The notes under the pieces were generated by a model. The model was not told the origin of the DNA. It was given only the letters and a program-made list of their open reading frames with translations, and ran no database searches. Source: a virus. Taken from it: a stretch of DNA of 64,000 nucleotides. Positions 9,852-60,492 of this stretch are shown piece by piece; position 1 is the stretch's first letter; every line of letters begins with the position of its first letter. A program made the translations under genes and the position numbers. The DNA lies in IMG/VR virus record IMGVR_UViG_3300042294_004161, positions 35,131 to 99,130 of that record. The stretch is one strand, 5' to 3'.

Positions 9852-12539
9852 ATGGCAACTCCTGAGGAAATACAAAAATTACTTAAAGACTTAGAAAAAG
9901 TTTATAAAGAATTAGGTACTAAAAATCCATTTGCTAATTTTGATGCTTCTAAAGTTTCAGATGCTAGTGCAGCTGTTGCTATTCTTAATGCAGGATTAAG
10001 AGATGCTAAACGAGAATTAAATGACATAAATGGGGATTTAAATGATACTGTCACAGCTTTTAAAAAAACAGTTGATGAAATTAAAAATACTAACTCAGGT
10101 CTTACATTAGCCTCTAAAACATTTAGTGGTTTAAGTGATATAGCTCGAAAATTAAAATCAGACCAAGCTGGAATTAATGAACTTTCAGGAAAAGAATTAA
10201 AAACATTACAAAAACAAGCTAAAGAAAAACGAGAAGATTTAATAGTTTCTAAAGATCTTCTTACATCCAGAATTTCAGAATTAAAAGAACTAGAAAAAAA
10301 AGGTGAATTAAATAAAAAAAATGAAAAAGAATTAATTCAATCTATAAATGCGGCTAAAGCTATTAAAAATGAATTAAGAGAACAAGATACTCTTTCTGCT
10401 TTAATTAATGGTAGATTAAATCAACGTATAAAACAAGAAGAAAGAATTGAAGGATTACTAGGTTTAGGTGGCGCCTCTATAGAAGGTGCTAAAAAAGCAT
10501 TAGATAAATTAGGTTTTGGAGGATTAGCAAATGCCCTTGGTTTAGATAAAGTCAAGGAGAAAATGGAAGAAGTAGCTGAGACTACAGAAAAATCTGAAGG
10601 ATATACTGGAGGATTTTCTGATAAAATGAAAGTACTTAAATCAGGAATTTCTGAAGCTGGGGTTCAATTTAAAAAATCTTTAACAGATCCAACAGTAGTT
10701 ACTACATTTTTAATTAATGAAATGGTATCTGCTCTTACCTCTGCTGATAAAGCTACAGGTGAATTAGCTAAATCTTTTGGTACTTCATATTCTGAGGCTA
10801 CATCATTAAGAAATGAGTTAAATACAGTAGCTAATTTAAGTGGTGATATAAATGTTAATACAGCAGCTCTCCAAAAATCATTAATAGCTATTAATAAAGA
10901 ATTTGGAACAGCATCAATGCTTAATGGTGAACTTCTTAAAGATTTCACTCAATTAACTACAGCAGCTGGTTATACTGAAGAGGCGGCATTAGGTTTATCT
11001 AAAATTACTGTAGCTACAGGTACAGATTTATCTGAAAATACATCTGAGATTTTAGGACAAGCAATGGCTTTTAATGCTACTAATAAGTTAGCTTTAAATG
11101 AAAAAGAAATTGTTGAAGGTGTAGCTAAAGCATCTGCAGCTACTACTTTATCTTTAGGAATGCAACCTAAAGAAATAGCTAAAGCTGTAGCCCAATCTAA
11201 AGCATTAGGTGTATCTTTACAACAAGTAGAACAAATAGCTAATTCATTACTTAATTTTGAACAATCTATTTCATCTGAATTAGAAGCAGAATTATTAACA
11301 GGTAAAGAACTTAATTTAGAAGAAGCAAGAAGATTTGCACTTAATAATGATATAGCTGGAGTAGCTAGAGAAATAGCAAAACAAATAGGAACAGCTGCTG
11401 ATTTTACTAAAATGAATGTTATTCAACAAGAAGCATTAGCAAAGTCTGTTGGAATGACTCGTGAAGATTTAGCTAACTCTTTAATAGAAAGAGAAGCATT
11501 AGCTAAAATTGGTAAAGGAGAAACAAATGCTCTAGAAGCATATAATAGACTTAAAAAAGAAGGACTATCTGATGACCAAATAGCAGCTAGATTAGGAGAT
11601 GAAAAATTAGCAACTCAATTAAAATCTCAATCAGTTCAAGAACGTTTTAATGCCTCAGTTGAAAAATTAAGAGAAATTTTTGTTAGTTTAGCAGAACCTG
11701 TTTTACAAATAATATCTCCATTTATGGATTTAGCAACAACAATATTACCTTTAATTAATATAGCATTAACTCCAATTACAGGAATTCTTAAATTTTTAGG
11801 AGAATCAATCCAATTTACTTTAGGATTAATAAGATCACTTTTAAAAGAAATTGGAGATCTTTTAAGCCCATTAACTAATATTCTTAATCCTTTATTTAAA
11901 GGCTTTTCAGAATTTGTAGAACAATCTAAAATTTTAAATACAATTTTAGAAGTCACAAAATCTATAGTAGGATCTATTGTTATTGCTTACGGAGCAATAG
12001 CAGCTTATAATGCAACTGCTAGTTTTTTTGCTGGACTAAGAGCAAAAGCTGAACAATCAACAGAAAAATCTTTAATTAGACAAGGTATTGTTATGTTAAA
12101 AAATTTAGGAACAGCTATTTTAGAGGCTGTTGCTAAAGTTACAGGAGCTAGTGCTGCTACTTTAGGAGTTGCTGCCGGCATAGCAGCAGTCGCCGGAGCT
12201 TCAGCTTACGCTTTTTTAAATAGCAAAAAAGGTAATGATATAATATCCCCAGGATATGGTGAACGTACATTATTCGGTCCAGAAGGAGCAATAGCATTAA
12301 ATAATAAAGATACAGTAATAGCAGGTACTAGTTTGTTTGGAGAAAATAAAAATCAATCAATAAATGAATCTACATCTGCATCTCCCTCATCCCCCTCAAT
12401 TAACTTATCACCATTAATTGAACGTATGATGGCTGTAGAAAATGTATTAGTACAAATTCTAAATAAAGAAGGTGGAGTATATTTAGATGGTACTAAAGTA
12501 GGTACAGCAATGGCTGTAAGTACTTACAGAGTTCAATAA
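9852..12539 (+). CDS. tail tape measure protein
   Basis: At 895 residues this is mostly helical. The N-terminal 260 residues are charged coiled coil (KEKREDLIVSKDLLTSRISE and similar). A long Ala-rich helical region follows. Hydrophobic stretches lie near 620-660 (AEPVLQIISPFMDLATTILP) and near 690-780. The C-terminal region has DIISPGYGERTLFGPEGAIA and DTVIAGTSLFGE, a pattern common at the ends of phage tape measures. The position just after the chaperone pair and before baseplate genes fits. The protein sets tail length and probably helps DNA cross the host membrane. T4 gp29 is the positional counterpart. Confidence 0.9.
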   Translation: MATPEEIQKLLKDLEKVYKELGTKNPFANFDASKVSDASAAVAILNAGLRDAKRELNDINGDLNDTVTAFKKTVDEIKNTNSGLTLASKTFSGLSDIARKLKSDQAGINELSGKELKTLQKQAKEKREDLIVSKDLLTSRISELKELEKKGELNKKNEKELIQSINAAKAIKNELREQDTLSALINGRLNQRIKQEERIEGLLGLGGASIEGAKKALDKLGFGGLANALGLDKVKEKMEEVAETTEKSEGYTGGFSDKMKVLKSGISEAGVQFKKSLTDPTVVTTFLINEMVSALTSADKATGELAKSFGTSYSEATSLRNELNTVANLSGDINVNTAALQKSLIAINKEFGTASMLNGELLKDFTQLTTAAGYTEEAALGLSKITVATGTDLSENTSEILGQAMAFNATNKLALNEKEIVEGVAKASAATTLSLGMQPKEIAKAVAQSKALGVSLQQVEQIANSLLNFEQSISSELEAELLTGKELNLEEARRFALNNDIAGVAREIAKQIGTAADFTKMNVIQQEALAKSVGMTREDLANSLIEREALAKIGKGETNALEAYNRLKKEGLSDDQIAARLGDEKLATQLKSQSVQERFNASVEKLREIFVSLAEPVLQIISPFMDLATTILPLINIALTPITGILKFLGESIQFTLGLIRSLLKEIGDLLSPLTNILNPLFKGFSEFVEQSKILNTILEVTKSIVGSIVIAYGAIAAYNATASFFAGLRAKAEQSTEKSLIRQGIVMLKNLGTAILEAVAKVTGASAATLGVAAGIAAVAGASAYAFLNSKKGNDIISPGYGERTLFGPEGAIALNNKDTVIAGTSLFGENKNQSINESTSASPSSPSINLSPLIERMMAVENVLVQILNKEGGVYLDGTKVGTAMAVSTYRVQ

Positions 12540-12812: not shown

Positions 12813-15104
12813 ATGGCTCTTATTAATCTTCAAACTGACCTTAAATCTCTTAGGTATGGTAAAGACACTCCAGGTGGTGGTGATAGTGGACAACCATATA
12901 TTAAAAAAACCATACCACGTGTTTTTGTAGGAGCCAGTGAAGATTTTCTGTTAAGAGGAGGAATAAACGCTGTAACAGACTCACTTACGGATGTTGCTCG
13001 TTTAGCTAAAATGTTCACTGATACCAAATCACCAAATGGTTTGTTATTTATTGCTAAACAACAGTTATTATCACGTACTGCTTCACCAGCACAAGGTGGG
13101 ACACCACAATCACCACGATTATTAAATGAAGGCGTTTATAACCCGTTAAGTACACTAGCTCAGGCAGGTGTAGTAGCGTTTGGGGGTCATTTAAATAAAC
13201 AAGGTATTAATCCATTTGCTGAAACAGGGGCATATTCTAAAAATCCTAATTTATATTTTAATAAAGTTAAAGCATCAAATTTAAGTGCTGACAACTATAT
13301 TAGAACAGATGAAGTAGTTACTCAAGCTGATACTATTACAACTCCTATAAGAGTTTTCAATTCAGATCTACCATACGCTGATCAAATATATAATGGTTTT
13401 GATGTATTAGGAAATGATACAACACAATTTTCTACTTCAAAAGTTACTAGTGCTGATTTTCAAAATAGACTAGCTAATTTATGGTATAATAAAGTAGAAC
13501 AAAAAACATCAGATATTAATGTTTTAACATATAATGGAGGACCTGGTTCTATATTAGGAATCGGAAAAACTAATATTAGATTTGCAGATCAAAGAACAGG
13601 AGTAAATAGTGATAAACCTATTACAGGGGGAGTGACTTGGACTCCAAATCAATCAATTAATAGAGAATTCACTACATTAATAGGAATTGAAACTTCTAAA
13701 GGAGCTTCAAAAGCGTATGCTACTACTAATGGGTTAACATTAGATAATGATGTTGTTGATGGAACTAGAGTTTATAACTCAGCTGTAGGTCTTAATGCTA
13801 AATTATTTAATCCTTTAGCTAATAGTCCAATAACTTGGACTCCAAAACTAGAACAAACTAAACCAGATAGAACTCTTCCATTTAATATAACTATAGGTAA
13901 ATTAAGTGATATAATAAATAATGATCCTGTATTTGATAGTCTTGATAACTTAAATACAAATAGAGGATTTACAACTCCTACAGTTTATCAACCAGGTCCT
14001 GATCAAACTATATTAAATAATACAGACTTAATATATGCTAATAATACTTATACTTATACTCAAAAACAAATATTAGAAAATCCATATGGCAATGAAAATA
14101 CAGGAGAAACAATATCATCTCGTTCTAATGTAGGAAAATTAAATGGTTCACCTATATGGCAAGATTTTAGAAAAAAAATTAGAGAAACTTTAGGAGAAAA
14201 TTCTGAGCAAGTTAAAAAAGCAAAAGAAAAAGGAGCTCTTCCTAATTCTCCTAATTATGCTTTTAAAGGAATTGAAAATAGAGTAAATATAGGTGGAAAA
14301 AATAATTTAGGACCTGGAAATTTTACTGGTAAAAATTTATCATCATATACAGCTGGTTCAGGTATAGGACCAATAGATAAAATAAATGCTTTACCAATAT
14401 ATAGAAGTAAAAATGTTGAAACAAATTCTCAAGATTATCCTATAAATGATCTAGTTAAATTTAGAATAGCTGTAATAGATAATAATTCCCCTAACTTTAA
14501 AACATTCATACATTTTAGGGCATTTATTGATTCAATGTCTGATTCATATAATGCTACTTGGAATGGATTTAATTATTTAGGAAGAAGTGAACAATTTTAC
14601 AATTATGGTGGGTTTACTAGAACTGTTTCATTATCATGGACGGTATCAGTTCAATCAAAACAGGAACTTATTCCAATGTATAAAAAATTAAATTATCTAG
14701 CTTCATCATTAACAGGTGATTATAGTCCAGATGGATATATGAGAGGTAATTTAGTGCAATTAACTATTGGAGGATATTTATATGAACAACCAGGTATAAT
14801 AACTTCATTAACATATGATGTTCCCACAGAATCACCTTGGGAGATTGGAATAAATGATGAAGGTGGATTTGATTCTAGTGTAAAAGAATTACCTCATATT
14901 ATACGAGTAACAGGATTTAACTTTATACCTATCCAAAATTTTGTACCACAAAAACAAAAATTAACATTTGGTGATAATAATACAACAGGCAGTACTGATA
15001 GTTCTACAGGATTTGTAAAAACTGAAGGATTTCAAAGATATATAGCTTTAGCTAATGGAGATGATAAAGATAAAAGTTTTACTAATTATACAAACCCATC
15101 ATAA
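12813..15104 (+). CDS. large baseplate/tail protein (gp48/gp54 position)
   Basis: A 763-residue protein. The N-terminal region resembles virion proteins seen in other marine myophages (IPRVFVGASEDFLLRGGI, then LARLAKMFTDTKSPNGLLF). Long polar and Asn/Thr-rich stretches fill the middle. A more conserved C-terminal domain at about 540-720 contains KFRIAVIDNNSPNFKTFIHF, SLSWTVSVQSKQELIPMYKK and QLTIGGYLYEQPGIITSL. Its place between tape measure and hub genes matches the tube-cap proteins gp48 and gp54, but it is about twice their size. The exact homology is uncertain. Confidence 0.65.
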   Translation: MALINLQTDLKSLRYGKDTPGGGDSGQPYIKKTIPRVFVGASEDFLLRGGINAVTDSLTDVARLAKMFTDTKSPNGLLFIAKQQLLSRTASPAQGGTPQSPRLLNEGVYNPLSTLAQAGVVAFGGHLNKQGINPFAETGAYSKNPNLYFNKVKASNLSADNYIRTDEVVTQADTITTPIRVFNSDLPYADQIYNGFDVLGNDTTQFSTSKVTSADFQNRLANLWYNKVEQKTSDINVLTYNGGPGSILGIGKTNIRFADQRTGVNSDKPITGGVTWTPNQSINREFTTLIGIETSKGASKAYATTNGLTLDNDVVDGTRVYNSAVGLNAKLFNPLANSPITWTPKLEQTKPDRTLPFNITIGKLSDIINNDPVFDSLDNLNTNRGFTTPTVYQPGPDQTILNNTDLIYANNTYTYTQKQILENPYGNENTGETISSRSNVGKLNGSPIWQDFRKKIRETLGENSEQVKKAKEKGALPNSPNYAFKGIENRVNIGGKNNLGPGNFTGKNLSSYTAGSGIGPIDKINALPIYRSKNVETNSQDYPINDLVKFRIAVIDNNSPNFKTFIHFRAFIDSMSDSYNATWNGFNYLGRSEQFYNYGGFTRTVSLSWTVSVQSKQELIPMYKKLNYLASSLTGDYSPDGYMRGNLVQLTIGGYLYEQPGIITSLTYDVPTESPWEIGINDEGGFDSSVKELPHIIRVTGFNFIPIQNFVPQKQKLTFGDNNTTGSTDSSTGFVKTEGFQRYIALANGDDKDKSFTNYTNPS

Positions 15105-15411: not shown

Positions 15412-18372
15412 ATGGGAAACATAGTAGGGGAAGGTTTTGATCAAATAATTATAGATCAAATAAATCAAAGACAAAAAATATATGGTTCTATTAATAGAAC
15501 TAATGAAATATTAAATTACATAAATAATAAAACAGGTTGGTGTCGTTTAGTATCATCGGTTGATGTTGTTGTACCTCCTCCAAATAGAAACTTACCTAAT
15601 AGAGGTGTAGACCTTGCTAAAAATTTTATTTTATTTAATGGCACTTCATTCCAAGGGAATCAACAAAGAGGAGGAGTATGGCCTGGTACAGATGATCCTA
15701 GTTTTAATGACTATGCTTATGGTATGGGAGGTACTAATTTTGGATTACGTCCAATGCCTGGTATTACTCAAGCAACAATAAAAACAGAAACTAGAGGTTC
15801 TCTTAAAACAGCAACAATTAATATTAAAGCAAATAATAGAGAACAATTTGATATAATTGATGTTCTTTATCTTCGTTTAGGATATACAATGTTATTAGAA
15901 TGGGGTAGTAGTTCTTATTTTAGAAATAATGGAGATTATGAATCTAATAATTCTAATAGTTTAGTAAATGATTTTTTAAACGCAGGCCCCGCTACCCCAC
16001 CTAGTCCTACTTCAAGTACAAATCCAAATATTACAAATATTACAAATAATCCTTTAGTCTTTCAAACACCCCAACTTATTACAGGAAATACAACACCATC
16101 AAACACAAATAAAATTTTTAGTTATGCCAATTATCCTGAAAAGATTAAAGAAAAAAGATTAGAAGCTGTAGGTAATTATGATGCTATTATAGGTAAAGTA
16201 GTTAATTTTAATTGGACTTTTACAAAAGATGGAACCTATGATATTACTGTAATTTTAAGAAGTATGGGAGATGTAATTGAATCTCTTAAAACAAATATTC
16301 TACTTCCTGGAACTACAATTAATACTAATTCTGGAGATACTCAACCATCTGATAAACCAATTGAAGTAATTAAATCCTTTTCAGAAATTCATAGTATAGG
16401 AAAAGAATTTTATAGATTACAACAAAAACTCCCTTCAGCAAATACTCAAGGTGGGGGCATATTTAGAATTTTAGCTAAGTCTCAAGACAAAAATAATATG
16501 GCTTTTGAAGACAATAGTATTGATCCAAATTCAGTTATAGCTTTTTCTCAAATATATAGTGGAGAAGGTGGAGGTACTCATTATTATATTCGTTTAGGAT
16601 ATTTTTTAAAATTTTTAGAAAGAAAAATTATTCCTTATGTAAATATACCAGAAGTAGCTTTAATGGAATTTGATACAGATGTTAGGTCTAATATTATATA
16701 TTTACAAGCTCGACAAATTAGTAATAATCCAGGAATATGTGTAATTAATACTACTATAACTTTTAATGAAAATGGAAAAGAAGTAAAATTTGCTCCTGGT
16801 TGTGATCAGTTTAAAACTACATTACCTGGTAGTAAAAATACATATGGAAGAATAATGAATATTTATTTTGATATGGCTTGGATATTAACTACTATGGATT
16901 CATTAAAAGATAAAGATGGAAAAATATCATTATATTCCTTATTAGAAAGTATTTGTGATGGATGGAATACAGCAACAGGTAATTTTAATAAATTAGAACC
17001 AACAGTAGAAGAAAAAACAATACGTTTTATAGATGAAACAGCTCTTCCTGATAGAGATAGATGGTTAGAATTATTAGGTCAATCTGTAAAACCTGCGTTT
17101 TTTGATGTATATGGTTTATATCCTAGTAATCAAACAGCAGGATTTATTAAAGATTTAAGTTTTAATACAACTGTACCTCCAAATTTAGCTACTATGATTA
17201 CTATAGGAGCTACTTCTAAAGGATATGTTGTAGGACAAGATTCAACTGCTTTATCTCGAATGAATGCAGGTTTTACAGATAGATTTAAAAAAAATATAGA
17301 ATTCTCAGAAGATAAATCACCTCCAGGAACTTCATCTATTATTAATAACTATTCAGAAGTATTAAAAAATTATAATACTTTTCTTTTAGAATTAGGATCT
17401 GTTGATGAAGGAAAACCAAACTGGAATCAAGAAGCTATAGATAACTTTACAAATACAGCTGAAACTTTTTATGAATATGATCAAGCTAAACAAACATTAG
17501 AAGCTGTTGGATTATCAAAAGATTTAGCTGTTAAAGTAGTATCAGGAGAAACAACTACATCAGTAGAAGATTATGTAAATTATTTATCATCAGCTCCTGC
17601 ATCTTCAATTGGATTTTTACCTTTTGATCTACAATTAATAATGGATGGCCTTTCTGGAATGAAAATATATCAAAAATATACAATTGATACTACTTATTTA
17701 CCTGCTAATTATCCAACATCATTAGAATTTTTAATTAAAGGAATAACTAATAATATTCAAAACAATGAATGGACTACTACTATAGAATCAATAGCTATAC
17801 CTAAAAATCCATTTGGTTCTGTTCTTGGGAAAGGGGCGGTTGGTAATGCTTCTCGAGATAATAATAGAGGTGCTGCTCCTACACCAACCGGATCTACACC
17901 AAACGCTAATAGATTAAGAACAATCTTAACAAGTTTAGGATACCGTGAAAAAGGTAGAGAATTATCTAACGGTGGAGATATTTCAAATGATCTAGTAAAT
18001 TATGCTGCTTCAGTATTTAGAGAAATTAAAAACCAACTTCCAAGTTTAATAATCACAGTAACTGGAGGTAATGATGCTTATCACCAAAGATTAGCTTACA
18101 AATCATCTCATACCTTGGGCCAAGGATTAGATTTTGTAATTTCTCCATTAACAATAGATAATAAAAATGCTGTTGATAAAATATTAGGAGGATTTGCAGC
18201 TGGTAACCAATCTAAAATTGTTAGCTTTATTAATGAATATGATTATCCATCTTCAGCAGCTACAGCAGGTCACTTCCATATTAGAATTGGAGGTAAAGTT
18301 GAAAGTAAAAGAATAGCTACATTTATAGCTCAAGCAAATAAAGGTCAATTAACAACATATCCAATAGTTTAA
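15412..18372 (+). CDS. baseplate hub protein with C-terminal M15-type peptidase
   Basis: A 986-residue protein whose first 800 residues look like a hub or central-spike scaffold: RPMPGITQATIKTETRGSLK near 120, then VVNFNWTFTKDGTYDITVIL near 265. A Pro/Thr-rich linker near 820-835 leads to a peptidase domain. The metal-ligand pattern of M15/VanY-like D,D- or L,D-peptidases is visible: H900-X6-D907 within SSHTLGQGLDF, and H954-F-H956 within GHFHIRIGG. It would cut peptidoglycan peptides during DNA injection, the job done by the gp5 lysozyme in T4. The hub role comes from size and position. The peptidase assignment is the firmer part. Confidence 0.75.
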   Translation: MGNIVGEGFDQIIIDQINQRQKIYGSINRTNEILNYINNKTGWCRLVSSVDVVVPPPNRNLPNRGVDLAKNFILFNGTSFQGNQQRGGVWPGTDDPSFNDYAYGMGGTNFGLRPMPGITQATIKTETRGSLKTATINIKANNREQFDIIDVLYLRLGYTMLLEWGSSSYFRNNGDYESNNSNSLVNDFLNAGPATPPSPTSSTNPNITNITNNPLVFQTPQLITGNTTPSNTNKIFSYANYPEKIKEKRLEAVGNYDAIIGKVVNFNWTFTKDGTYDITVILRSMGDVIESLKTNILLPGTTINTNSGDTQPSDKPIEVIKSFSEIHSIGKEFYRLQQKLPSANTQGGGIFRILAKSQDKNNMAFEDNSIDPNSVIAFSQIYSGEGGGTHYYIRLGYFLKFLERKIIPYVNIPEVALMEFDTDVRSNIIYLQARQISNNPGICVINTTITFNENGKEVKFAPGCDQFKTTLPGSKNTYGRIMNIYFDMAWILTTMDSLKDKDGKISLYSLLESICDGWNTATGNFNKLEPTVEEKTIRFIDETALPDRDRWLELLGQSVKPAFFDVYGLYPSNQTAGFIKDLSFNTTVPPNLATMITIGATSKGYVVGQDSTALSRMNAGFTDRFKKNIEFSEDKSPPGTSSIINNYSEVLKNYNTFLLELGSVDEGKPNWNQEAIDNFTNTAETFYEYDQAKQTLEAVGLSKDLAVKVVSGETTTSVEDYVNYLSSAPASSIGFLPFDLQLIMDGLSGMKIYQKYTIDTTYLPANYPTSLEFLIKGITNNIQNNEWTTTIESIAIPKNPFGSVLGKGAVGNASRDNNRGAAPTPTGSTPNANRLRTILTSLGYREKGRELSNGGDISNDLVNYAASVFREIKNQLPSLIITVTGGNDAYHQRLAYKSSHTLGQGLDFVISPLTIDNKNAVDKILGGFAAGNQSKIVSFINEYDYPSSAATAGHFHIRIGGKVESKRIATFIAQANKGQLTTYPIV

Positions 18373-30845: not shown

Positions 30846-30870
30846 ACAATTTTAATATTTTTTAATAAGA

Positions 30871-30893
30871 AAGGTGCGAGAGCACCTTTTTTT
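30871..30893 (+). terminator. rho-independent terminator, possibly bidirectional
   Basis: AAGGTGC at 30871-30877 pairs with GCACCTT at 30882-30888 around GAGA, followed by more T residues. It lies between nrdA and the convergent minus-strand gene whose stop is at 30892, so it may serve both. Confidence 0.85.
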
Positions 30894-31356
30894 ATTGTTT
30901 TGTATATAATTCTAAATAATATAATGCTATTTTTATACAATGTTCTAATAAATTTTTATTTGGATTTGGTAAACGACTTAGAAAATCTAATTCATAAATA
31001 TATGCATCATATTCTTCTAAATACTCATTCTTATCTTTGTCATTTATTTTCATTAAATGGTAAGATTCATGTATAATTACTGCTGCAATATTTTGAATTG
31101 ATGTGTCTCTTATCTCAATACTTGAAATTATAATAGTACCGATTCCTTCAGTCGTTGAATATCTACCATTCCAATAAGAAATTCTATTACATACTTGAGT
31201 TAATTTTAGATATTTATCATGATCGTATGTTTTAATAAGTTGAATCGCAGTTTCTATTTTAGGTTTCCAATTATCCCCAGCATCATCAATTACAATTTGT
31301 GAAAACAAATTTGTATAAATTAATAAAAAAAATGATAAAATAAAAAATATTTTCAT
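30892..31356 (-). CDS. secreted HExxH putative metalloprotease
   Basis: This is the only gene here read on the - strand. The 154-residue product has a Sec signal peptide (hydrophobic residues 3-18, likely cut after NLFSQ) and a zinc-protease motif IIHESYH with H96, E97 and H100. A candidate third ligand lies in EEYDAY at 114-115. C6-region cysteine pairs are not evident. Secreted small HExxH proteins can be peptidases or cell-wall enzymes. It converges on nrdA and diverges from the T9SS protein, and it has its own class L motif. Catalytic activity is inferred. Confidence 0.65.
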   Translation of the reverse strand: MKIFFILSFFLLIYTNLFSQIVIDDAGDNWKPKIETAIQLIKTYDHDKYLKLTQVCNRISYWNGRYSTTEGIGTIIISSIEIRDTSIQNIAAVIIHESYHLMKINDKDKNEYLEEYDAYIYELDFLSRLPNPNKNLLEHCIKIALYYLELYTKQ

Positions 31357-31366
31357 ATGTATTTGT

Positions 31367-31376
31367 GTATAAATAT
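31367..31376 (-). promoter_or_regulatory. class L promoter motif on the minus strand
   Basis: Read on the - strand the sequence is ATATTTATAC, ending about 10 nt before the ATG at 31356. Its orientation matches the only minus-strand gene, which supports the motif as directional. The overlapping + strand sequence could also serve the gene at 31390. Confidence 0.55.
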
Positions 31377-31389
31377 TTGAAATAAAATT

Positions 31390-33282
31390 ATGAAAAAAAT
31401 ATTATTAACCATTTTTAGCATTTTATTCTTTACATTAACAAATGCTCAAGTATGTCCTACACCACCAACTAATGGTGTTCATATTACATTGGACTCTGCA
31501 TATTTATTAGGTGCATTTAATGTAGGAAAAACATCTGTTGGGTTATGTTATTATAACAATACAACAGATAAAATAACAGCATCCCAATTTCGTGTTTTTT
31601 ATGATAATAATGCCTTTAATGGTATTGATACTATTATTTCAACTAATACTTCATTTTCACAGTATTTACAATATTTAGATAATCCTGCTGGTGGTTATGT
31701 AACTATAACATTTACATATACAGGAGTTGACCCTCAATTTAATATTCCAAATGGTTCTCAATTTGAAATAACATTTAATCACACTCAAGCATTATCTACT
31801 ACTTATTTTAATGTTAGTAATATGAGTTTTGTAGGAACTAATTCATTTCCTGAAACCGCAACTTTGCAAAATGGTAGTGATTATACTTTAAATTTAACAA
31901 ACTTTGGTGGTCAATTTATTACACCTAAAATGTCATTTCGTGGTAAATTTGTTAACGTAACAGGTTCAAGAGCAAAAAATCTGACAGTTAGTCTTGAAAA
32001 AAAATTAAAAACAACTTCTTCTTGGACATCAGTTACATCTGAATTAACTGATAACTTAGGTAGATTCTTTTTTACTGATGTAAATATTGATACAACAGCA
32101 TGGGATGTTCGTTTAAATATTAAGGGTGATACTATGGGTGTCGGATCAATAGTATCTATCTCAGATGCACAAAAAATAAATCAATTTATATTAGGAACCT
32201 CAATACCATCAGGATTTGATTTTTACACTTCTGATGTAAACGGAGACAACCGAGTAACTATATCAGATGTATATGGTGTTTATTCAAGAGTTGGTGGAAG
32301 ATTTACATCTTGGCCTAACTCAGTTCAAGATATATTATTCTTCACTGAAAGTGAATATAACACAATTAATAATTCAACTACTAACTATACAAGTACAATA
32401 CCTGGTGTCACAAATTTTACATTTAATATTGTAGCTGGACAACCTGATTCAATTACATTCTATGTAGCAGTACCAGGTGATGCTAATTCTACTGGATTTA
32501 ACATGGCTCGTTTAATCCCAATTGAAATTATAAACCCTAATAATGCACCTAATAATATAATAGATGCAACAACTATTTATGATGATTTTAAAGAAACCAT
32601 TGAAATAAATCTTCCAAAAGTAACTGTAAGTGAAGGTAATCTTATTAATGTACCTTTAATCTTAAAAACAAATAATATTAGATTAGGTTCATTGCAATTT
32701 GCATTAGACTATAACATAGATTTATTAGAGTTTAAATCAATACAAACAGAAAAAAATTCTTCAGTTTGGATGTCATATTTAAACACAAAAGACAATATAA
32801 TTGAATGGGGTGGTTTTGACCCAACCAATAATAGATTCTTAACTAACAACAATGAGTTATTTTTTACTTTACAATTTGTAAGTAAAAAACCACAAGAACA
32901 ATGGGGTGTTAGTCCTTTATATGTAACAAGAAAATTCGCAGGTAATAATGCTTCAACAGATTTAAATATTACCCCAACAGAAGGTATAGTGAGAATATTA
33001 AGAGTCTCAGGCAATGTTTTAGGTGGTAGGGATATTGTTGTTTATCCTAATCCAACAGAAAATTTTATACAAATAGAATTTGTATTATTAAATGAAGGTA
33101 AAACTACATTAGGTATATATGACATAAATGGAAAAAAATGTATGGAAGTTATTAATGGAGTATATCCTGTTGGTCAATATAATTATGAAATAAATTTAGG
33201 AAATTTACCATCAGGTACTTATCTAGCAATTCTTAATAATGTCACAGATAATAAAACAATAAAAATTCAAAAAATAAAATAA
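31390..33282 (+). CDS. T9SS-sorted secreted protein with dockerin and cohesin-like domains
   Basis: The 630-residue product has a Sec signal peptide ending near TNAQ (residue 20) and β-rich N-terminal domains. A CnaB-like module lies at about 180-255 and a dockerin-type calcium loop DVNGDNRVTISD near 282. A cohesin-like β domain lies at about 400-530 (VSEGNLINVPLILKTNNIRL). The C-terminus from about 545 to 630 is a classic type IX/Por sorting domain: VYPNP at 551-555, LGIYDINGKKCMEV, then LGNLPSGTYLAIL. The host T9SS would export it to the cell surface. The gene is unusual for a lytic phage. Confidence 0.8.
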   Translation: MKKILLTIFSILFFTLTNAQVCPTPPTNGVHITLDSAYLLGAFNVGKTSVGLCYYNNTTDKITASQFRVFYDNNAFNGIDTIISTNTSFSQYLQYLDNPAGGYVTITFTYTGVDPQFNIPNGSQFEITFNHTQALSTTYFNVSNMSFVGTNSFPETATLQNGSDYTLNLTNFGGQFITPKMSFRGKFVNVTGSRAKNLTVSLEKKLKTTSSWTSVTSELTDNLGRFFFTDVNIDTTAWDVRLNIKGDTMGVGSIVSISDAQKINQFILGTSIPSGFDFYTSDVNGDNRVTISDVYGVYSRVGGRFTSWPNSVQDILFFTESEYNTINNSTTNYTSTIPGVTNFTFNIVAGQPDSITFYVAVPGDANSTGFNMARLIPIEIINPNNAPNNIIDATTIYDDFKETIEINLPKVTVSEGNLINVPLILKTNNIRLGSLQFALDYNIDLLEFKSIQTEKNSSVWMSYLNTKDNIIEWGGFDPTNNRFLTNNNELFFTLQFVSKKPQEQWGVSPLYVTRKFAGNNASTDLNITPTEGIVRILRVSGNVLGGRDIVVYPNPTENFIQIEFVLLNEGKTTLGIYDINGKKCMEVINGVYPVGQYNYEINLGNLPSGTYLAILNNVTDNKTIKIQKIK

Positions 33283-33304
33283 GTTAAACTAAATTAAAAT
33301 TAAA

Positions 33305-33622
33305 ATGTCAGAAGAAAACGAAAACAATGGAACTTGGAGTGGTCTTAAAAAAACTATAATAGGTTTAATTACAACAGCTGTTACAGCAGGTGCAGCATAT
33401 TTTACCTCAAATTTATTTAGTGGTAAAGATGAAGATGAAAGTGTAAAAACAGAACAAATTGCTCCTGCCCCTGCACCTGTAATTAACTTAAATGTTGATA
33501 ACTCCTCACAGAACAATTCATCAAATGGTGGAAATACTCATACCATTATTAGAGAAGTAGAAAAACCTGCATCTCAAACATCCCCTTCGAAACCAAAAAA
33601 AGAAGAAGAGGACCCTTGGTAA
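33305..33622 (+). CDS. single-pass membrane protein with Pro-rich tail
   Basis: The 105-residue product has one hydrophobic helix at about 18-40 (TIIGLITTAVTAGAAYFTSN), then an acidic segment. An Ala/Pro stretch (APAPAPVINLNVDN) and an Asn/Ser-rich linker follow, with a charged end (PKKEEEDPW). There is no cleavable signal peptide. It begins the membrane part of the secreted cassette. An inner-membrane anchor or spanin-like role is possible but not shown. Confidence 0.55.
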   Translation: MSEENENNGTWSGLKKTIIGLITTAVTAGAAYFTSNLFSGKDEDESVKTEQIAPAPAPVINLNVDNSSQNNSSNGGNTHTIIREVEKPASQTSPSKPKKEEEDPW

Positions 33623-33658
33623 TTTTACAAAAAAATAAACAATTAAATAAATAAAAAA

Positions 33659-33940
33659 ATGAAAAAAAAGAACGAAACATCATTCATTAGACGAATGTTT
33701 ATGGATGATAATGACATTAATGAGAAATCAGTTGTTGGTTTTGGTGCATTTATTATGATGGTAATCTGCTTAGGTGTAGACATTTGGACAGGATTTCATG
33801 GACAACAAATGCCAATTAATGAATTTATTTTTGACGGATTTATGGTCATTACATTAGGTTCATTTGGTATTGCTTCTGTTGATAAATTTATCACTGCAAA
33901 ACATGGTGGTGAAAAGAAAGAAGAAGAAACATATGACTAA
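33659..33940 (+). CDS. small two-helix membrane protein
   Basis: The 93-residue product has a charged N-terminus and two hydrophobic helices at about 25-45 (VVGFGAFIMMVICLGVDIW) and 57-75 (FDGFMVITLGSFGIASVD). A charged C-terminus follows (HGGEKKEEETYD). The topology is holin-like, but a better holin candidate lies next to the endolysin at 37998. It overlaps the CsgG-like gene by 8 bases, so a role with the envelope cassette is as likely. Confidence 0.55.
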   Translation: MKKKNETSFIRRMFMDDNDINEKSVVGFGAFIMMVICLGVDIWTGFHGQQMPINEFIFDGFMVITLGSFGIASVDKFITAKHGGEKKEEETYD

Positions 33941-34649
33941 ATCATTTATTATGGGGATGGTAATGACTTTAATGTCATTACCATCTTTTTCTCAAGTTGG
34001 TAGTATTAAAACTGAATCATATAAAGCTAAATTTGAGCAAGAACAATCTATTGATTTGGTAAGTGATTATAATGGTGATATTGTAATACCTATACAAGTT
34101 TTAAAAATAGGTATTAATGAAGAACTCTACGAAATGTATCCTGAATTAAAAGATAAACGAGTTGGTTTGGGTGTAGCAAATATTGTGTTAGAATTTTTAG
34201 AATCTACAGACAGATTTGTTTTTACAGAAGATAAAGCTGAAATTAAAAACAAAATGATAGCACAGGATAAAGCATCTGATAAAGGAATTTCAAGTAACAA
34301 AATTGAAGTTAAAGGTAATGTAATGTTAGCCAAATTCTTTGTTTATATAGAAGTATATGATTTTTCAGTATCTGAAGATGAAGTTTTGAAATTAAATGAT
34401 GGTACTAAAATTACCCAAACAACAAGATTAGGCCTACAGGTAAGATTTGTAGATGCAGAAACAGGTTTAGTTTATACAGGTAGCGGATTAGGTGAGGCTA
34501 GTACAATTAAAACATCATCATTATTAGGTGACATTGATGAAATTAAATTTAATCAATCAACAATAGGTATTTCAACTAAAAAGGCACTAGAAACTGCATC
34601 ATCAAGAATTATTAGTAAATTAATTAAAAAAAATATTTTTAAAGAGTAA
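33933..34649 (+). CDS. CsgG-like secreted protein
   Basis: About 238 residues from the ATG at 33933; the open frame extends upstream, but the signal peptide begins here (MTKSFIMGMVMTLMSLPSFS, then Q). The body resembles CsgG/curli-channel proteins: VGLGVANIVLEFLESTDRFV with KNKMIAQDK after it, then LQVRFVDAETGLVYTGSGLG. Curli CsgG forms an outer-membrane secretion channel. This copy has no lipobox cysteine after the signal peptide, unlike CsgG. LpoB-like or other CsgG-fold proteins are alternatives. It heads a coupled set of secreted proteins. Confidence 0.6.
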   Translation: MTKSFIMGMVMTLMSLPSFSQVGSIKTESYKAKFEQEQSIDLVSDYNGDIVIPIQVLKIGINEELYEMYPELKDKRVGLGVANIVLEFLESTDRFVFTEDKAEIKNKMIAQDKASDKGISSNKIEVKGNVMLAKFFVYIEVYDFSVSEDEVLKLNDGTKITQTTRLGLQVRFVDAETGLVYTGSGLGEASTIKTSSLLGDIDEIKFNQSTIGISTKKALETASSRIISKLIKKNIFKE

Positions 34650-34651
34650 TT

Positions 34652-35836
34652 GTGAAATTTTTTTTCACTATATTATTACTAATATTCTCATTTACAAATA
34701 TAATGGGGCAAGGATTTAGTTATACTTATCTAGATCCTTGTACTCGTACATATAAAACAATTGTTATGCCTCGTAATCAACAAGGTATAACTGTTAATTA
34801 TTATGGTTATACAAATAATTTTAATCAAACCGATTTTTCTAATGGTAATTTTGAATCATGGATAAATCAAATTAGTCAATTAAATTCTTCTTCCCCTTGT
34901 GACCAAATAACATCCGCGGTTCAAACAAGTACAAATCAAATCATAACTCAAAACATAGTATCCACTTTAACAAGTATTACCTCTGCAACTGCAACTCAAA
35001 GTTTGAATATGGGTAATTTTAGTAATTTAGGTCCTTCTTCAAATAATTCAGGTTCAGGTAGTTCATCAAATAGTTCAAATTCATCTAATTCAGATAATTC
35101 ATCAAATACTGAAGGTAATGAAGAAGGTGGTGGAGGTGGTGGTGGAACAGCAAATTCCGTTTCTAATGCATCTGAAAGTACTTCAGAATCAAAAGAAGAT
35201 AAAAATTCAAAACCTCGTGTAGGTTCTTTAATAGGTACAGGTGATATTGTTGTAGTTAGAAACACAGACGACAGTAGGGACCAATTTAGAGGTACTATGT
35301 CTTTAACTAAAACTAACACAAATAATACAAGAGCTAAGGGTCTTTTAGCTAATTTTACAACATCTATTAACAATTCAAATATCACATTTTACACAGCATA
35401 TTCAAAAAAAAAGAATACTCTAATAATAGCAAATTCATCTATGATGGATTTTCAACGAAATATATTTAACACTACAACAGTATTAGAATCATATAAAATA
35501 AAACGATTATCTTTAATGGGTGGAATTAATTACACTCTAGGAGGTATTGGTAAATCTAGTTTCCAAAATCTATCAGCAATGGGTGGTGGGTTTTATTTGT
35601 TTAATTTAAATAAAAAAATACAAGTTACCACATTACTTTTAGCCGTGTATTCACCATATACCGTTTTTTATGAAGGACAATGGTGGAAATCATCCACATT
35701 AATAGTACCTTTTAGTTCTTGGGATTATGCATTAACTAAAACTTTTAAATTCAATATTAGTTTTTCAGGTACTTATGAAATAAATCAAAACTTTTTAAAC
35801 TATCAAATACTTACAGGAGGTAAAATCTTATTATGA
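34652..35836 (+). CDS. secreted/outer-membrane-like protein with Ser-Asn-Gly linker
   Basis: A GTG start at 34652 follows the CsgG-like stop by 2 nt. The 394-residue product has a signal peptide ending near NIMGQ, an N-terminal domain with two Cys, and then a low-complexity Ser/Asn/Glu/Gly linker at about 125-185. The C-terminal half has amphipathic β strands (LSLMGGINYTLGGIGKSSFQ, then QVTTLLLAVYSPYTVFYEG), suggestive of an outer-membrane barrel or fibre-like domain. No family was recognised. Coupling to the CsgG-like gene suggests a partner or substrate. Confidence 0.6.
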   Translation: MKFFFTILLLIFSFTNIMGQGFSYTYLDPCTRTYKTIVMPRNQQGITVNYYGYTNNFNQTDFSNGNFESWINQISQLNSSSPCDQITSAVQTSTNQIITQNIVSTLTSITSATATQSLNMGNFSNLGPSSNNSGSGSSSNSSNSSNSDNSSNTEGNEEGGGGGGGTANSVSNASESTSESKEDKNSKPRVGSLIGTGDIVVVRNTDDSRDQFRGTMSLTKTNTNNTRAKGLLANFTTSINNSNITFYTAYSKKKNTLIIANSSMMDFQRNIFNTTTVLESYKIKRLSLMGGINYTLGGIGKSSFQNLSAMGGGFYLFNLNKKIQVTTLLLAVYSPYTVFYEGQWWKSSTLIVPFSSWDYALTKTFKFNISFSGTYEINQNFLNYQILTGGKILL

Positions 35837-36285
35837 AAAAAATAATCTTATCAATCAGTCTTTTATTATTTGGGATGACACTACAAGCCCAAGATTGTTA
35901 CACAGTAAAAAATGTAAAAAATTTAACAGAAAACATTGAATTATCATCAAATAAATATATATTCGGTATTAAACAAATGGGTGAAGAACTTATTAGTGAT
36001 AAATTAAATATTTGTGTTGATGGAATACCAATTAATATTGTTATTAACTCAATAGAAGCACCAAGTGTTGGTATTTCAATTGGTCCTTTTATGATAAAAA
36101 GAAAAACAACAATAGTTAATACATCCATAATAATTGGTGATAAAATTTATCAGGGAACAGGTGAAGGAAAAATTTCTGTTAAAGCAACATTTATTGAATT
36201 AAGAGATGAAAACTTACCTTTTGAACAATCTTCATTTTCATCATCAATAAAAAAATCATTAATTAACGCAATTGAAAAAATCTGA
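35833..36285 (+). CDS. small secreted protein of the envelope cassette
   Basis: The 150-residue product overlaps the upstream stop (ATGA). It has a signal peptide ending LQAQ at about residue 20, one Cys pair candidate (C22, plus the C in LNICVDG), and a β-rich body. The end (IGDKIYQGTGEGKISVKATF, then SSIKKSLINAIEKI) echoes the last strands of CsgG-like proteins, so it may be a shortened relative or an assembly partner. Function unknown. Confidence 0.6.
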   Translation: MKKIILSISLLLFGMTLQAQDCYTVKNVKNLTENIELSSNKYIFGIKQMGEELISDKLNICVDGIPINIVINSIEAPSVGISIGPFMIKRKTTIVNTSIIIGDKIYQGTGEGKISVKATFIELRDENLPFEQSSFSSSIKKSLINAIEKI

Positions 36286-37355
36286 TGAAAAATATAATTT
36301 TAATATTCTTTTTTTTATTGAGTATTAAATCATATTCTCAATCACCTTTATGTGCAAGTAGACCAACCTCTTTTTGTTGTGAGTATGTTTCAAGCATAAC
36401 AATAAACGGAAAAACTTTTCAAGGTAGTACAGGATTCTCAGCTTCATCAGGTGGTAATCCAGCTGGTTATTATGATTATACTCAACAATCAAATTTAGTT
36501 CCAACTATTAATGCTGGTCAGCAAATATCAATTTCATATACTGCTGTTACTAATGGTAATTACATGGAATATTTTAAACTATGGATTGATTTTAATGGAA
36601 ATGGTGTATTAACTGACCCAGGTGAATTAGTTCATAGTACAAATGTATCTTGGGTTGGTACTAGAACTATTAATGCTACATTTACAGTTCCTACAACTGT
36701 ATTTAATGGTCAAGTTTATATGCGTTTTATTATGCAATTTTCAGGGAATCCTGTTATATGTGGAACATATTCATATGGTAATACTTTTGATTTTGTAACT
36801 AATATAACAGGAGCTCAAGATCCATTTAGTTATACAGGAGCTATATATGGTTCTGAAGGAATTGGTTTATCAAACATACCTTTACAATTGTTTAGCAAAT
36901 TAAAAACAGATAATACCTATACATTTTTAAGTACTCATACAACTAATTTAAACGGGGAATTTAATCTTACATCTTCAAGAGATGCTAATACATATGATTT
37001 TCAATTACGATTAGAAAATTTAATAATACAATCACCAACAATAAATGATGCAATATTATTTAATAATAAAATTTTAACTCAATCTTTTGTATCAAAAGAC
37101 TACTATAGATTAGATATAAATGGTGATAATAATTTATCTATATCAGATATTTATCTAATTTATACAAGAATATCAAATCGTAATTGGAATATTACTTTAT
37201 ATAGAATTTTTACATTATCTGAATGGAATGTGATTAATACTTTGAATACTAATCCTAAAAGTTTATATAATGGTAGTCAAAATTTAACAATAAATAATTT
37301 ACCAAATAAAGGAACTAACCAACTTTATTTAATTCGTACAGGATATTACAATTAG
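36285..37355 (+). CDS. secreted GEVED- and dockerin-containing protein
   Basis: A 356-residue protein with a signal peptide ending KSYSQ at about residue 19. A GEVED-type β domain spans about 35-170 (YFKLWIDFNGNGVLTDPGEL, then VYMRFIMQFSG). A CnaB-like plus dockerin module spans about 180-320, with the calcium loop DINGDNNLSISD. The latter module is shared with the T9SS protein at 31390. No C-terminal sorting domain is present, so it is not an obvious T9SS cargo. GEVED domains are frequent in Bacteroidota surface proteins. It ends the secreted cassette. Confidence 0.7.
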   Translation: MKNIILIFFFLLSIKSYSQSPLCASRPTSFCCEYVSSITINGKTFQGSTGFSASSGGNPAGYYDYTQQSNLVPTINAGQQISISYTAVTNGNYMEYFKLWIDFNGNGVLTDPGELVHSTNVSWVGTRTINATFTVPTTVFNGQVYMRFIMQFSGNPVICGTYSYGNTFDFVTNITGAQDPFSYTGAIYGSEGIGLSNIPLQLFSKLKTDNTYTFLSTHTTNLNGEFNLTSSRDANTYDFQLRLENLIIQSPTINDAILFNNKILTQSFVSKDYYRLDINGDNNLSISDIYLIYTRISNRNWNITLYRIFTLSEWNVINTLNTNPKSLYNGSQNLTINNLPNKGTNQLYLIRTGYYN

Positions 37356-37401: not shown

Positions 37402-38001
37402 ATGAACTTAGATAAACTAAAATCCCACATTCCAGATGCAGTTATATCTCAGATGCCTGAGGTAATAGAAAAATTTCAAATCAATACACCATTAAGAATG
37501 GCCCACTTTTTAGCTCAATGTGGTCATGAAAGTGGTGGATTTAAATTAGTAAGAGAAAATCTTAACTATTCATCTAAAGGTCTTTTAACTACATTTAAAA
37601 AATATTTCCCAACAGAACAAAAAGCTAAATTATATGAACGCAATCCTGAAAAAATTGCTAATTTAGTTTATGGAAGTAGAATGGGAAATGGAGATGAAAC
37701 CTCAGGTGATGGATTTAGATTTTCAGGAAGAGGATATATCCAGTTAACTGGTAAAAATAATTATACAGCATTTGATAAAATAGTTGAAGAAAATCTTCTT
37801 GAACAACCAGGTTTAGTTGCTACTAAATATCCATTATTATCAGCTGCTTGGTTTTGGTCAACAAATAAATTAAATTTATTAGCTGATAAAGGAGCCACAG
37901 ATGCTGATGTTACAGCAATTACTAGAAGAGTGAATGGTGGTACAATAGGATTGCCTGATCGTATTAAACACTTTAAAGAATATTTCAATTTATTAAAATG
38001 A
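37402..38001 (+). CDS. GH19-type endolysin
   Basis: The 199-residue product is a single glycoside hydrolase 19 domain. It has HFLAQCGHESGGF with the likely catalytic E43, a second acid near E52, and the family hallmark GRGYIQLTGKNNY near residue 115. It also has SAAWFWSTNKLN and ITRRVNGGTIGL. GH19 enzymes in phages cleave the peptidoglycan glycan chain. There is no signal peptide, so it needs a holin, and the next gene encodes one with a 4-bp overlap. Confidence 0.92.
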   Translation: MNLDKLKSHIPDAVISQMPEVIEKFQINTPLRMAHFLAQCGHESGGFKLVRENLNYSSKGLLTTFKKYFPTEQKAKLYERNPEKIANLVYGSRMGNGDETSGDGFRFSGRGYIQLTGKNNYTAFDKIVEENLLEQPGLVATKYPLLSAAWFWSTNKLNLLADKGATDADVTAITRRVNGGTIGLPDRIKHFKEYFNLLK

Positions 38002-38432
38002 AATATACATCATTAACCAATCCTTTATTGTTAACAATAACATCAGTATCTGCTTTTTGTTCTTTTATACTTTCATATTTTTTTGAAATATATTTAAATA
38101 ATATAGATCAATATATGGCTGTAGTAGGAGTAATGTTTGTTGATGGTATTTTTGGAATTATAGCGGGGACTAAAAAAGAAGGTTTTAAAACTTTTAGGGC
38201 TATAAAAATATTAAAGGATACTTTTACTTGGTTAATAGTATTAACAACTATATTAATGGTTGAAAAAGGGTTTGATGGAACTGCTTGGCTTAGTGAAGTA
38301 ATTATCGTACCTTTTATGGTATTTCAAATAATAAGTGCTTTAAAAAATGCCTCTATGGCAGGATATATTAAAGCAGGTTTATTAAATGATATATTAGATA
38401 AAATAGATAAACATAAAGGTACAAGAGATTAA
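37998..38432 (+). CDS. phage holin (holin_4-like)
   Basis: The 144-residue product has about four hydrophobic helices: at 8-30, 38-56 (YMAVVGVMFVDGIFGIIAG), 70-90 (TFTWLIVLTTILMV) and 98-118. The central VDGIFGIIAGTKKEGFKTFR fits the phage holin family 4 pattern (V/I-D-x-x-x-G-x-x-A). The start overlaps the endolysin stop as ATGA. It would form membrane lesions that release the GH19 enzyme. Confidence 0.82.
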   Translation: MKYTSLTNPLLLTITSVSAFCSFILSYFFEIYLNNIDQYMAVVGVMFVDGIFGIIAGTKKEGFKTFRAIKILKDTFTWLIVLTTILMVEKGFDGTAWLSEVIIVPFMVFQIISALKNASMAGYIKAGLLNDILDKIDKHKGTRD

Positions 38433-52573: not shown

Positions 52574-52873
52574 ATGAGTTATACAATTATTAAAGATCCC
52601 GCCCTTGAGCCATTTTTCCTATCTAAAGATCAATACTGTTATACAGTGTTTGAGAACATAGTTCCTACTAATACTTCAACTAGAGGTAGAAAGTCAGCGG
52701 ATGGTAAAGAATATCAAAGAGCATATGGTCATTATTCAAAATTATCATCTGCTGTGAATGCTGTTATTAAACTTAAAACAGACACAAAATCAAATCAATA
52801 TGATAGTTTAACATCATATTTGGATGAAATTAAACAACAAGAACAACAATTAAAAAATCTATTAAAAATATGA
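52574..52873 (+). CDS. small conserved-looking phage protein
   Basis: The 99-residue product has an N-terminal YTIIKDPALEPFFLSKDQYC segment, a basic RGRKSADGKEYQRAYGHYSK stretch and a coiled-coil end. The pattern recurs in other T4-like phages as a small protein of unknown role, from memory. It overlaps groES by 4 bases and leads the chaperonin operon. Confidence 0.6.
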   Translation: MSYTIIKDPALEPFFLSKDQYCYTVFENIVPTNTSTRGRKSADGKEYQRAYGHYSKLSSAVNAVIKLKTDTKSNQYDSLTSYLDEIKQQEQQLKNLLKI

Positions 52874-53163
52874 AATTAGAAGCTTTGTACAATGCGGTTA
52901 TAGTTAAACCGGTCGAACCAGAAGAAGAGTTACATGGTAACATTATTGTTCCTGATTTAGGAAATGAAAAAAACAAAACAGCTGAAGTTGTAGCTGTAGG
53001 TCCAGGATATTATTCTGCAACTGGAGTATTTATTGAAACTATTTTAAAAGTAGGAGAAGTTGTAATACTACCTACTATGGGATTTAGTAAAATGGAATTC
53101 CAAGGAGAAGAGTATTGGTTAGGACCTGAGAATCAAATACTTGGTAAAATTACAAAAAACTAA
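52870..53163 (+). CDS. groES: GroES-like co-chaperonin
   Basis: The 97-residue protein starts LEALYNAVIVKPVEPEEELHGNIIVP, the GroES pattern with the mobile loop at about 16-35. TAEVVAVGPGYYS, VVILPTMGFSKMEFQGEEY and an ILGKI end follow. The length equals bacterial GroES and is closer to it than to T4 gp31 (111). It is immediately upstream of a complete groEL, so it caps the phage chaperonin. Confidence 0.92.
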   Translation: MKLEALYNAVIVKPVEPEEELHGNIIVPDLGNEKNKTAEVVAVGPGYYSATGVFIETILKVGEVVILPTMGFSKMEFQGEEYWLGPENQILGKITKN

Positions 53164-53168
53164 AATAA

Positions 53169-54787
<1,619 letters not shown>

Positions 54788-54788
<1 letters not shown>

Positions 54789-59049: not shown

Positions 59050-60492
59050 ATGAATAATAAATTTAAATACGTTCCTAAAGAACAAAGAAAAAAAATCCTT
59101 TTAATATCTGATGATATTCGAGCCCATAGTGGAGTAGGAAATGTTGGTAAAGAAGTAGTTATCCACACATCACATCATTTTAATTTTGTCCAAATTGCAG
59201 GAGGAATTAAACATCCTGAAGCAGGTAAAAGATTAGACATATCAGAAGACACTAATAAAATAGCAGGTATTGAAGATGCGTCTGTTATTCTTTATCCATC
59301 TGATGAGTATGGTAATCCAGATTTACTAAGACAAATTATTAAATTAGAGAAACCAGATGCGATAATGTTAATTACAGACCCAAGATATTTTACTTGGATA
59401 TTTGCTATGGAAAATGAAATACGTAAAGACATTCCAATAACTTATTTGAATATTTGGGATGATTACCCAGCTCCATATTATAACTCAGCTTATTATGAAG
59501 CTTGTGATTTGTTGATGGGTATTTCAAAACAAACAGTTAATATAAATACTTTAGTATTAGGTGAAAAAGCTAAAGATAGGATTATAAAATATGTTCCTCA
59601 TGGACTTAATGAAAAAGTATTTTATCCTATTACTTCAGAATCTGAATCTTACAGTAGGTTTAAAGAGTTTAAAAAAGTATTTTATAAAGGTAAAGAATAT
59701 GATTTTGTTATGTTCTTTAATTCTAGAAATATTAGACGGAAACAAATTCCAGATACATTACTAGCATATAAATATTTTATAGATCAATTACCTGTTGAAA
59801 AAGCTAAAAAATGTGCTTTCGTATTACATACTGATAAAGTAAGTGATCATGGAACTGATTTAATAGCTGTTCAAAAAACATTATTAGATGGAGATCAATA
59901 CAATATTATTTACACTGATAGAATATTAAGCCCAGAAGAATTAAACTTTATATATAATTCATCAGATTGTCAAATTTTATTAACATCTAATGAGGGTTGG
60001 GGTTTAAGTTTAACTGAAGCTATATTAGTTGGAAACCCAGTTATAGCTAATGTGACAGGTGGAATGCAAGATCAAATGAGATTTGAAGATGAAGAAGGTA
60101 ATTGGTTTACTCCATCACCTGATGTTCCATCAAATAATACTGGTAAATATAAAAAATGTGGTGAATGGGCTTTCCCAGTATTCCCAAATAATCGTTCATT
60201 ACAAGGTTCTCCTCCAACACCATATATTTGGGATGATAGATGTAGTTCTGAAGATGCTGCTAAACTAATTATGGCTGTCTATTCTTTAGATAAAGAAGAA
60301 CGTAAATCTAAAGGATTAAAAGGTAGAGAATGGGCATTAAATGAAGCTGGATTTACTAGTGAGAAACAAGGAGAACGTGTTATTGAAGCATTTGATGAGT
60401 TATTTGAAACATGGGTTCCAAGAAAGAAATTTGAATTCATTAATGCTAATGAAGTACAACACAAAACATTAAACCATAAATTGTTATATTAA
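59050..60492 (+). CDS. glycosyltransferase, GT4-like
   Basis: The 480-residue product has a GT-B start (KILLISDDIRAHSGVGNVGK), a central YVPHGLNEKVFYP joint, and the donor motif LLTSNEGWGLSLTEAILVGN near residue 315 with the E-x7-E acids. It then has VIANVTGGMQDQMRF. It heads the second glycan cluster under a class E promoter. Donor and acceptor are unknown. Confidence 0.85.
   Translation: MNNKFKYVPKEQRKKILLISDDIRAHSGVGNVGKEVVIHTSHHFNFVQIAGGIKHPEAGKRLDISEDTNKIAGIEDASVILYPSDEYGNPDLLRQIIKLEKPDAIMLITDPRYFTWIFAMENEIRKDIPITYLNIWDDYPAPYYNSAYYEACDLLMGISKQTVNINTLVLGEKAKDRIIKYVPHGLNEKVFYPITSESESYSRFKEFKKVFYKGKEYDFVMFFNSRNIRRKQIPDTLLAYKYFIDQLPVEKAKKCAFVLHTDKVSDHGTDLIAVQKTLLDGDQYNIIYTDRILSPEELNFIYNSSDCQILLTSNEGWGLSLTEAILVGNPVIANVTGGMQDQMRFEDEEGNWFTPSPDVPSNNTGKYKKCGEWAFPVFPNNRSLQGSPPTPYIWDDRCSSEDAAKLIMAVYSLDKEERKSKGLKGREWALNEAGFTSEKQGERVIEAFDELFETWVPRKKFEFINANEVQHKTLNHKLLY

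Follow-up and report, generated by a model that had tools for sequence, protein, structure and literature searches.

Related phage-borne systems

Curli (type VIII secretion) operons have been described in the pelagiphages HTVC008M and Melnitz and in HTVC023P-type phages (PMC7029224, PMC9004378, PMC9599517). Such operons of pelagiphages and methylophages are shared by unrelated phages and absent from the host, and adhesion, exclusion and lysis have all been proposed for them (PMC7029224, PMC9004378, PMC9599517). They raised the question of why a lytic phage should alter the surface of a host cell that is already dying. Curli genes (A, G and F) were also reported in a marine Bacteroidetes virus, TARA_ERS488589_N000003 (PMC7198788).

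The cassette studied here lies in the virus record IMGVR_UViG_3300042294_004161 (99,130 bases), of which a stretch of 64,000 nucleotides, the window, was analysed. We named its genes, by their first position, H (30892, minus strand), S (31390), m1 (33305), m2 (33659), G (33933), B (34652), g (35833) and D (36285), with LYS (37402) adjoining. Like the pelagiphage operons, it holds a phage-borne CsgG-fold protein (G) within a multi-gene block of exported proteins, occurs in unrelated phages and was missing from the sampled host chromosomes; unlike them, it has a cohesin/dockerin scaffold, a T9SS tail, the barrel B and the G paralogue g, and a forced alignment of G with HTVC008M CsgG gave no more than 22% identity. 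TARA_ERS488589_N000003 is likewise a Bacteroidetes virus with CsgG-type and surface-adhesion genes, and differs, by its description only, in having canonical curli genes and no mention of cohesin or dockerin. Neither the window proteins nor the alignments of G, g and B had a Pfam match to curlin repeats (CsgA/B), CsgE or CsgF. Because CsgA, CsgE and CsgF were undetected, membership of the curli systems was ruled out; the cassette may nevertheless work in a similar way.

The nearest cultured relative of the record within the cassette is Immutovirus. Flavobacterium phage vB_FspM_immuto (Immutovirus, NC_055915) carries the same module at the same site after the ribonucleotide reductase genes, with a G that is 68% identical; it differs in that the scaffold is split into two genes, that its genes are mostly annotated as hypothetical and that no H was seen beside the module. 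As in cellulosome assemblies, cohesin and dockerin modules are present on separate exported proteins; unlike the cellulosome, the cassette is phage-carried, its anchor is a T9SS tail and no catalytic domain was found on D.

Gene content and secretion signals

All eight open reading frames (ORF) of the original prediction were present at the positions given there. Six of them had been said to encode a Sec signal followed by a Bacteroidota-type xxQ site, and heuristic scoring of the 79 ORFs in the window returned exactly those six (H, S, G, B, g and D), with none in the other 35 kb of the record. The signal and xxQ site were kept in the relatives of H (56/58), S (75/76), G (81/81), B (81/82), g (61/69) and D (65/69), and were found in none of the relatives of the endolysin (0/51) and m1 (0/73). 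The mechanically called ORF around G is longer (33864-34649); the signal peptide of G begins at 33933. PHROGs searches with the cassette proteins gave no useful match, and promoter-like matches were below shuffle expectation, so that no promoter is claimed.

The record encodes a contractile-tail sheath. Three large proteins (window 9852-12539, 12813-15104 and 15412-18372) follow the tail sheath gene and had no PHROG match at 1e-4.

Upstream, a terminator-like hairpin (30867-30892, plus strand; 11-bp stem and T tract, by consensus match only) follows the ribonucleotide reductase gene and parts that operon from the cassette. H (30892-31356, minus strand) has the signal and xxQ site, and the HExxH motif that had been predicted for it was kept in 58/58 relatives. 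It is likely a small zinc metallopeptidase; its Pfam scores were below the cut-off, and the sequence resemblance to DUF2268/SprT-like proteins is taken as resemblance only.

Downstream, LYS (37402-38001, plus strand) encodes a GH19-type endolysin (phrog_181, 3.5e-70), and a holin gene follows (37998-38432, plus strand; PF05105, 1.4e-5). That the cassette adjoins endolysin and holin genes points to late use, and its products are thus probably made late, around lysis. In clade 2 of the relatives (see below), L178:3490-4092 and similar 201-aa proteins have an N-terminal TM and a strand-rich C-terminal part and lie beside the endolysin; they may be a Bacteroidota spanin type.

Scaffold S and the exchangeable protein D

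S (31390-33282, plus strand) comprises a signal, an N-terminal domain that by eye appears cohesin-like, a transthyretin-like domain, a putative dockerin, a cohesin and a T9SS tail. The dockerin module (residues 247-310; 32128-32319, plus strand) matched the dockerin of scaffoldin ScaB (4uyp) in a profile search with an E value of 0.0022. The cohesin module (residues about 404-530; 32599-32979, plus strand) was itself below the Pfam threshold in the window protein and was positioned through alignment with immuto gp015, whose cohesin was above the cut-off (5.9e-9). The T9SS type A sorting domain (33040-33264, plus strand; PF18962 2.4e-10, TIGR04183 8.8e-8) agreed with the prediction of a T9SS-sorted protein in the cassette. 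Among 27 clade 1 relatives of S, Por_Secre_tail was found in 27/27, Cohesin in 23/27 (best 1.4e-12) and Dockerin_1 in 19/27 (best 2e-4). S in clade 1 thus has both features of T9SS cargo, the Sec signal and the C-terminal sorting domain. Clade 2 S proteins mostly have no T9SS tail, and a lipobox protein follows S in 22/29 cases.

D (36285-37355, plus strand) contains a GEVED sugar-binding-type domain (7.3e-13), a transthyretin-like domain and a C-terminal dockerin-like module that is also found in S. The dockerin scores of the two window proteins, for which dockerins had been predicted, were weak (Dockerin_1 0.013, and 0.45 for D); they were stronger in relatives of S, as given above, and weak in the D family. 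Two dockerin-bearing proteins imply a cohesin partner, which S carries. In immuto the scaffold is divided into gp014, corresponding to S residues 1-371 (dockerin half), and gp015, corresponding to S 404-628 (cohesin and T9SS tail, with its own signal). This split exactly between the dockerin and cohesin halves is what a non-covalent cohesin-dockerin pair allows. Immuto gp013 is a C-type lectin with the same dockerin-like module as D.

The heads of D varied across phages and included GEVED, Lectin_C (C-type lectin), Laminin_G_3 (laminin-G-like) and Ig_7 (Ig-like) domains. Different D proteins were found in phages whose G was 99-100% and S 93-97% identical, and between L042 and L045 the dockerin module was 81% kept, whereas the D head was only 24% identical. 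Since D is swapped between near-identical phages, it is the part that changes quickly, as would be expected if it determined specificity.

Envelope proteins G, g and B and the small membrane proteins

G (33933-34649, plus strand) is the most conserved cassette protein, 61-100% identical across clade 1; its signal is accompanied by a lipobox in 34/81 relatives. The predicted structure was of modest confidence (pLDDT 65), and its best PDB match by Foldseek was CsgG (4uv2, E 1.4e-8, TM 0.45-0.50), followed by FlgT and other CsgG-like folds, which bears out the earlier suggestion of a CsgG-like protein. G is therefore taken to be a CsgG-fold protein of the outer membrane or periplasm. The likeness appeared by fold search only: Pfam CsgG had no match to the window G and matched 1/23 members at 0.022, a PDB sequence search with G gave no match, and the profile of G did not match HTVC008M CsgG. 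One phage CsgG was added by a BFVD search.

The short secreted protein g (35833-36285, plus strand) belongs to no Pfam family and was recognised as a G paralogue by profile comparison (probability 96.4, E 1.4e-9). Weak PDB sequence matches of g to OB-fold-like proteins were judged to be chance.

B (34652-35836, plus strand), also of no Pfam family, is predicted from its AlphaFold model to be an outer-membrane beta-barrel of 12 strands (residues 192-393) behind a small N-terminal domain and a disordered linker. Foldseek matched the model with NanC (5.4e-7), FapF (1.4e-5) and EstA. It resembles the amyloid exporter FapF in that a linker and helix precede the 12-strand barrel, and differs in the low structural score (TM 0.36) and in that no Fap partners were found. 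Secreted strand-rich cassette proteins of about 260-270 aa in other loci (L034:10679-11467, L202:8716-9492 and L066:11088-11894) are possibly a second, smaller barrel.

Two small membrane proteins had been predicted. That at 33659, m2 (33659-33940, plus strand), has two hydrophobic segments, is holin-like, and in relatives is replaced by or joined with another two-TM protein, c6. That at 33305, m1 (33305-33622, plus strand), has one weak segment below the threshold. By inspection, m1 has one candidate TM, a Pro/Ala-rich tail and a C-terminal Trp. This Trp ends the protein in 73/73 relatives of clade 1 and in almost every clade 2 member. It is likely an inner-membrane tether.

Conservation and gene order

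Searching IMG/VR with G returned 169 relatives, and a profile-based search found the gene on at least 556 contigs; contigs with G relatives ranged from a few kilobases to 434 kb. Through comparison with 50,697 phage records, matches to G, B, S or D were found only in the four records of Flavobacterium phage immuto. Loci were grouped into clade 1 (L001-L080) and a second, separately seeded set, clade 2, of which 46 and 38 loci (84 in total) had full flanks and were counted.

G, g and B were present in 84/84 of these loci (46/46 and 38/38), S in 75/84 (45/46 and 30/38), and LYS near the cassette in 69/84 (37/46 and 32/38). Clade 1 also contained D (43/46), m1 (41/46) and H (36/46), and clade 2 m1 (35/38) and D (5/38), which places D outside the universal core. 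The order H, S, m1, (m2 or c6), G, B, g/D, LYS was kept across clade 1 in widely varying surroundings; in clade 2 it was LYS, g, S, lipoprotein, m1, G, B. Neighbouring genes overlap, with median gaps of -7 (m1-G), -4 (G-B), -20 (B-g) and -4 (g-D). A secreted DNA/RNA non-specific endonuclease (PF01223, 1.1e-25), represented by L074:4205-4780 and the c10 genes of 17 loci, lies inside the cassette in some of its versions.

T9SS tails and dockerins are typically features of Bacteroidota, as would be expected if the cassette were a recent moron or an assembly chimera from a host chromosome, a source that the original prediction had left for checking. The same module was present in hundreds of virus contigs and one cultured phage, and among the 248-396 Bacteroidota genomes sampled, the G, g and B profiles convincingly matched only a phage-like contig of one MAG. 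Scanning GTDB contigs turned up two loci, L083 and L084, both amid phage-like surroundings. We consider a host origin of this kind extremely improbable, and at the sensitivity of these searches a contiguous host chromosome segment was ruled out. L083 (CAIWBA010000291.1, 254 kb) and L084 (NZ_JAHEBT010000009.1) are phage-like contigs binned within bacterial MAGs.

The conserved gene set and order, the overlapping genes and their absence from the sampled host chromosomes strongly support the original view of one machine, borne by the phage and directed to the envelope or surface.

Proposed function and alternatives

The reading that we favour, with somewhat better than even confidence, is that the module builds a phage-encoded, envelope-spanning assembly which re-coats the infected Bacteroidota cell, with a surface layer of S and D served by G, g, B and m1. 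We infer the cohesin-dockerin binding, the T9SS export and the cargo of G/g/B as follows. S would leave by Sec, after which the host T9SS would carry it out and anchor it on the surface, where it presents its cohesin; through its own dockerin, S might also form head-to-tail chains. D would dock by its dockerin onto the S cohesin, bearing the interchangeable sugar-binding head. Together with the 12-strand barrel B, the CsgG-fold proteins G and g may form an outer-membrane assembly or export complex, with m1 as inner-membrane tether, that lets out D and perhaps other parts; this route of D across the outer membrane is a guess. The result, made around the time of lysis, would be a coat of variable lectin tips on a cohesin-dockerin layer. 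As to its purpose, which we likewise infer, we prefer glycan binding, by which infected cells and virions would be gathered together with new hosts; we rate masking of the phage receptor as almost equally probable.

Such masking would amount to superinfection exclusion, a rival on purpose that the same surface assembly fits, in which the D heads bind the host glycan that serves as phage receptor and so hide it, either on infected cells or on debris. The sugar-binding folds of the heads and their exchange between near-identical phages, as is seen for specificity determinants, agree with it; late timing would limit its use, and no further D-like head turned up in the record, which may be partial. 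We regard exclusion as rather unlikely to be the main role. An outer-membrane lysis or release device is also unlikely, in which m1 would be the tether and G/g/B a pore or disruptor triggered with the holin and endolysin, while S and D would stop progeny sticking to debris. Holin-like and endolysin genes do adjoin the cassette in most loci, and CsgGF of phage Melnitz has been suggested to act in lysis (PMC9004378). The m1/G overlap resembles that of spanin genes and some G proteins have a lipobox, but the CsgG fold of G is unlike o-spanins. A surface-anchored cohesin/dockerin scaffold with swappable lectin heads is unneeded for lysis, and clade 2 has its separate N-terminal-TM protein, by inspection possibly spanin-like, beside the endolysin.

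Tail proteins often have lectin and Ig-like folds (PMC9853417), and S and D might then be accessory fibres of the virion and not envelope proteins. The conserved Sec signals and the T9SS tail argue against this, as do the tail fibre and spike genes of immuto, which are annotated separately and far away; we consider it very unlikely.

We place the cassette among the phage-borne CsgG-type surface systems, as a new variant. It may form a class of its own, and we hold this tentatively, at somewhat less than even confidence: an undescribed phage organelle, a cohesin-dockerin surface fibre or coat with exchangeable lectin tips, built by a dedicated phage-borne CsgG-fold/barrel complex and the host T9SS, and common to hundreds of Bacteroidota phages, whose sizes run from tens of kilobases up to jumbo. 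The literature searched described no cohesin, dockerin or T9SS system of a phage, and as far as it shows this would be the first cohesin-dockerin and the first T9SS-dependent system carried by a phage. Hundreds of Bacteroidota phages carry the module with its swappable lectin head, and its presence in the isolated phage immuto, on Flavobacterium sp. LMO8, makes the question of surface remodelling testable.

Other genes of the window

Two adjacent glycosyltransferase-like genes (window 59050-60492 and 60494-61819; phrog_2170) might modify either the sugars of the host surface or the DNA of the phage. A GroEL-like chaperonin is encoded at 53178-54788 (PHROG groEL, 2.3e-157), preceded by a GroES-sized gene at 52870-53163.
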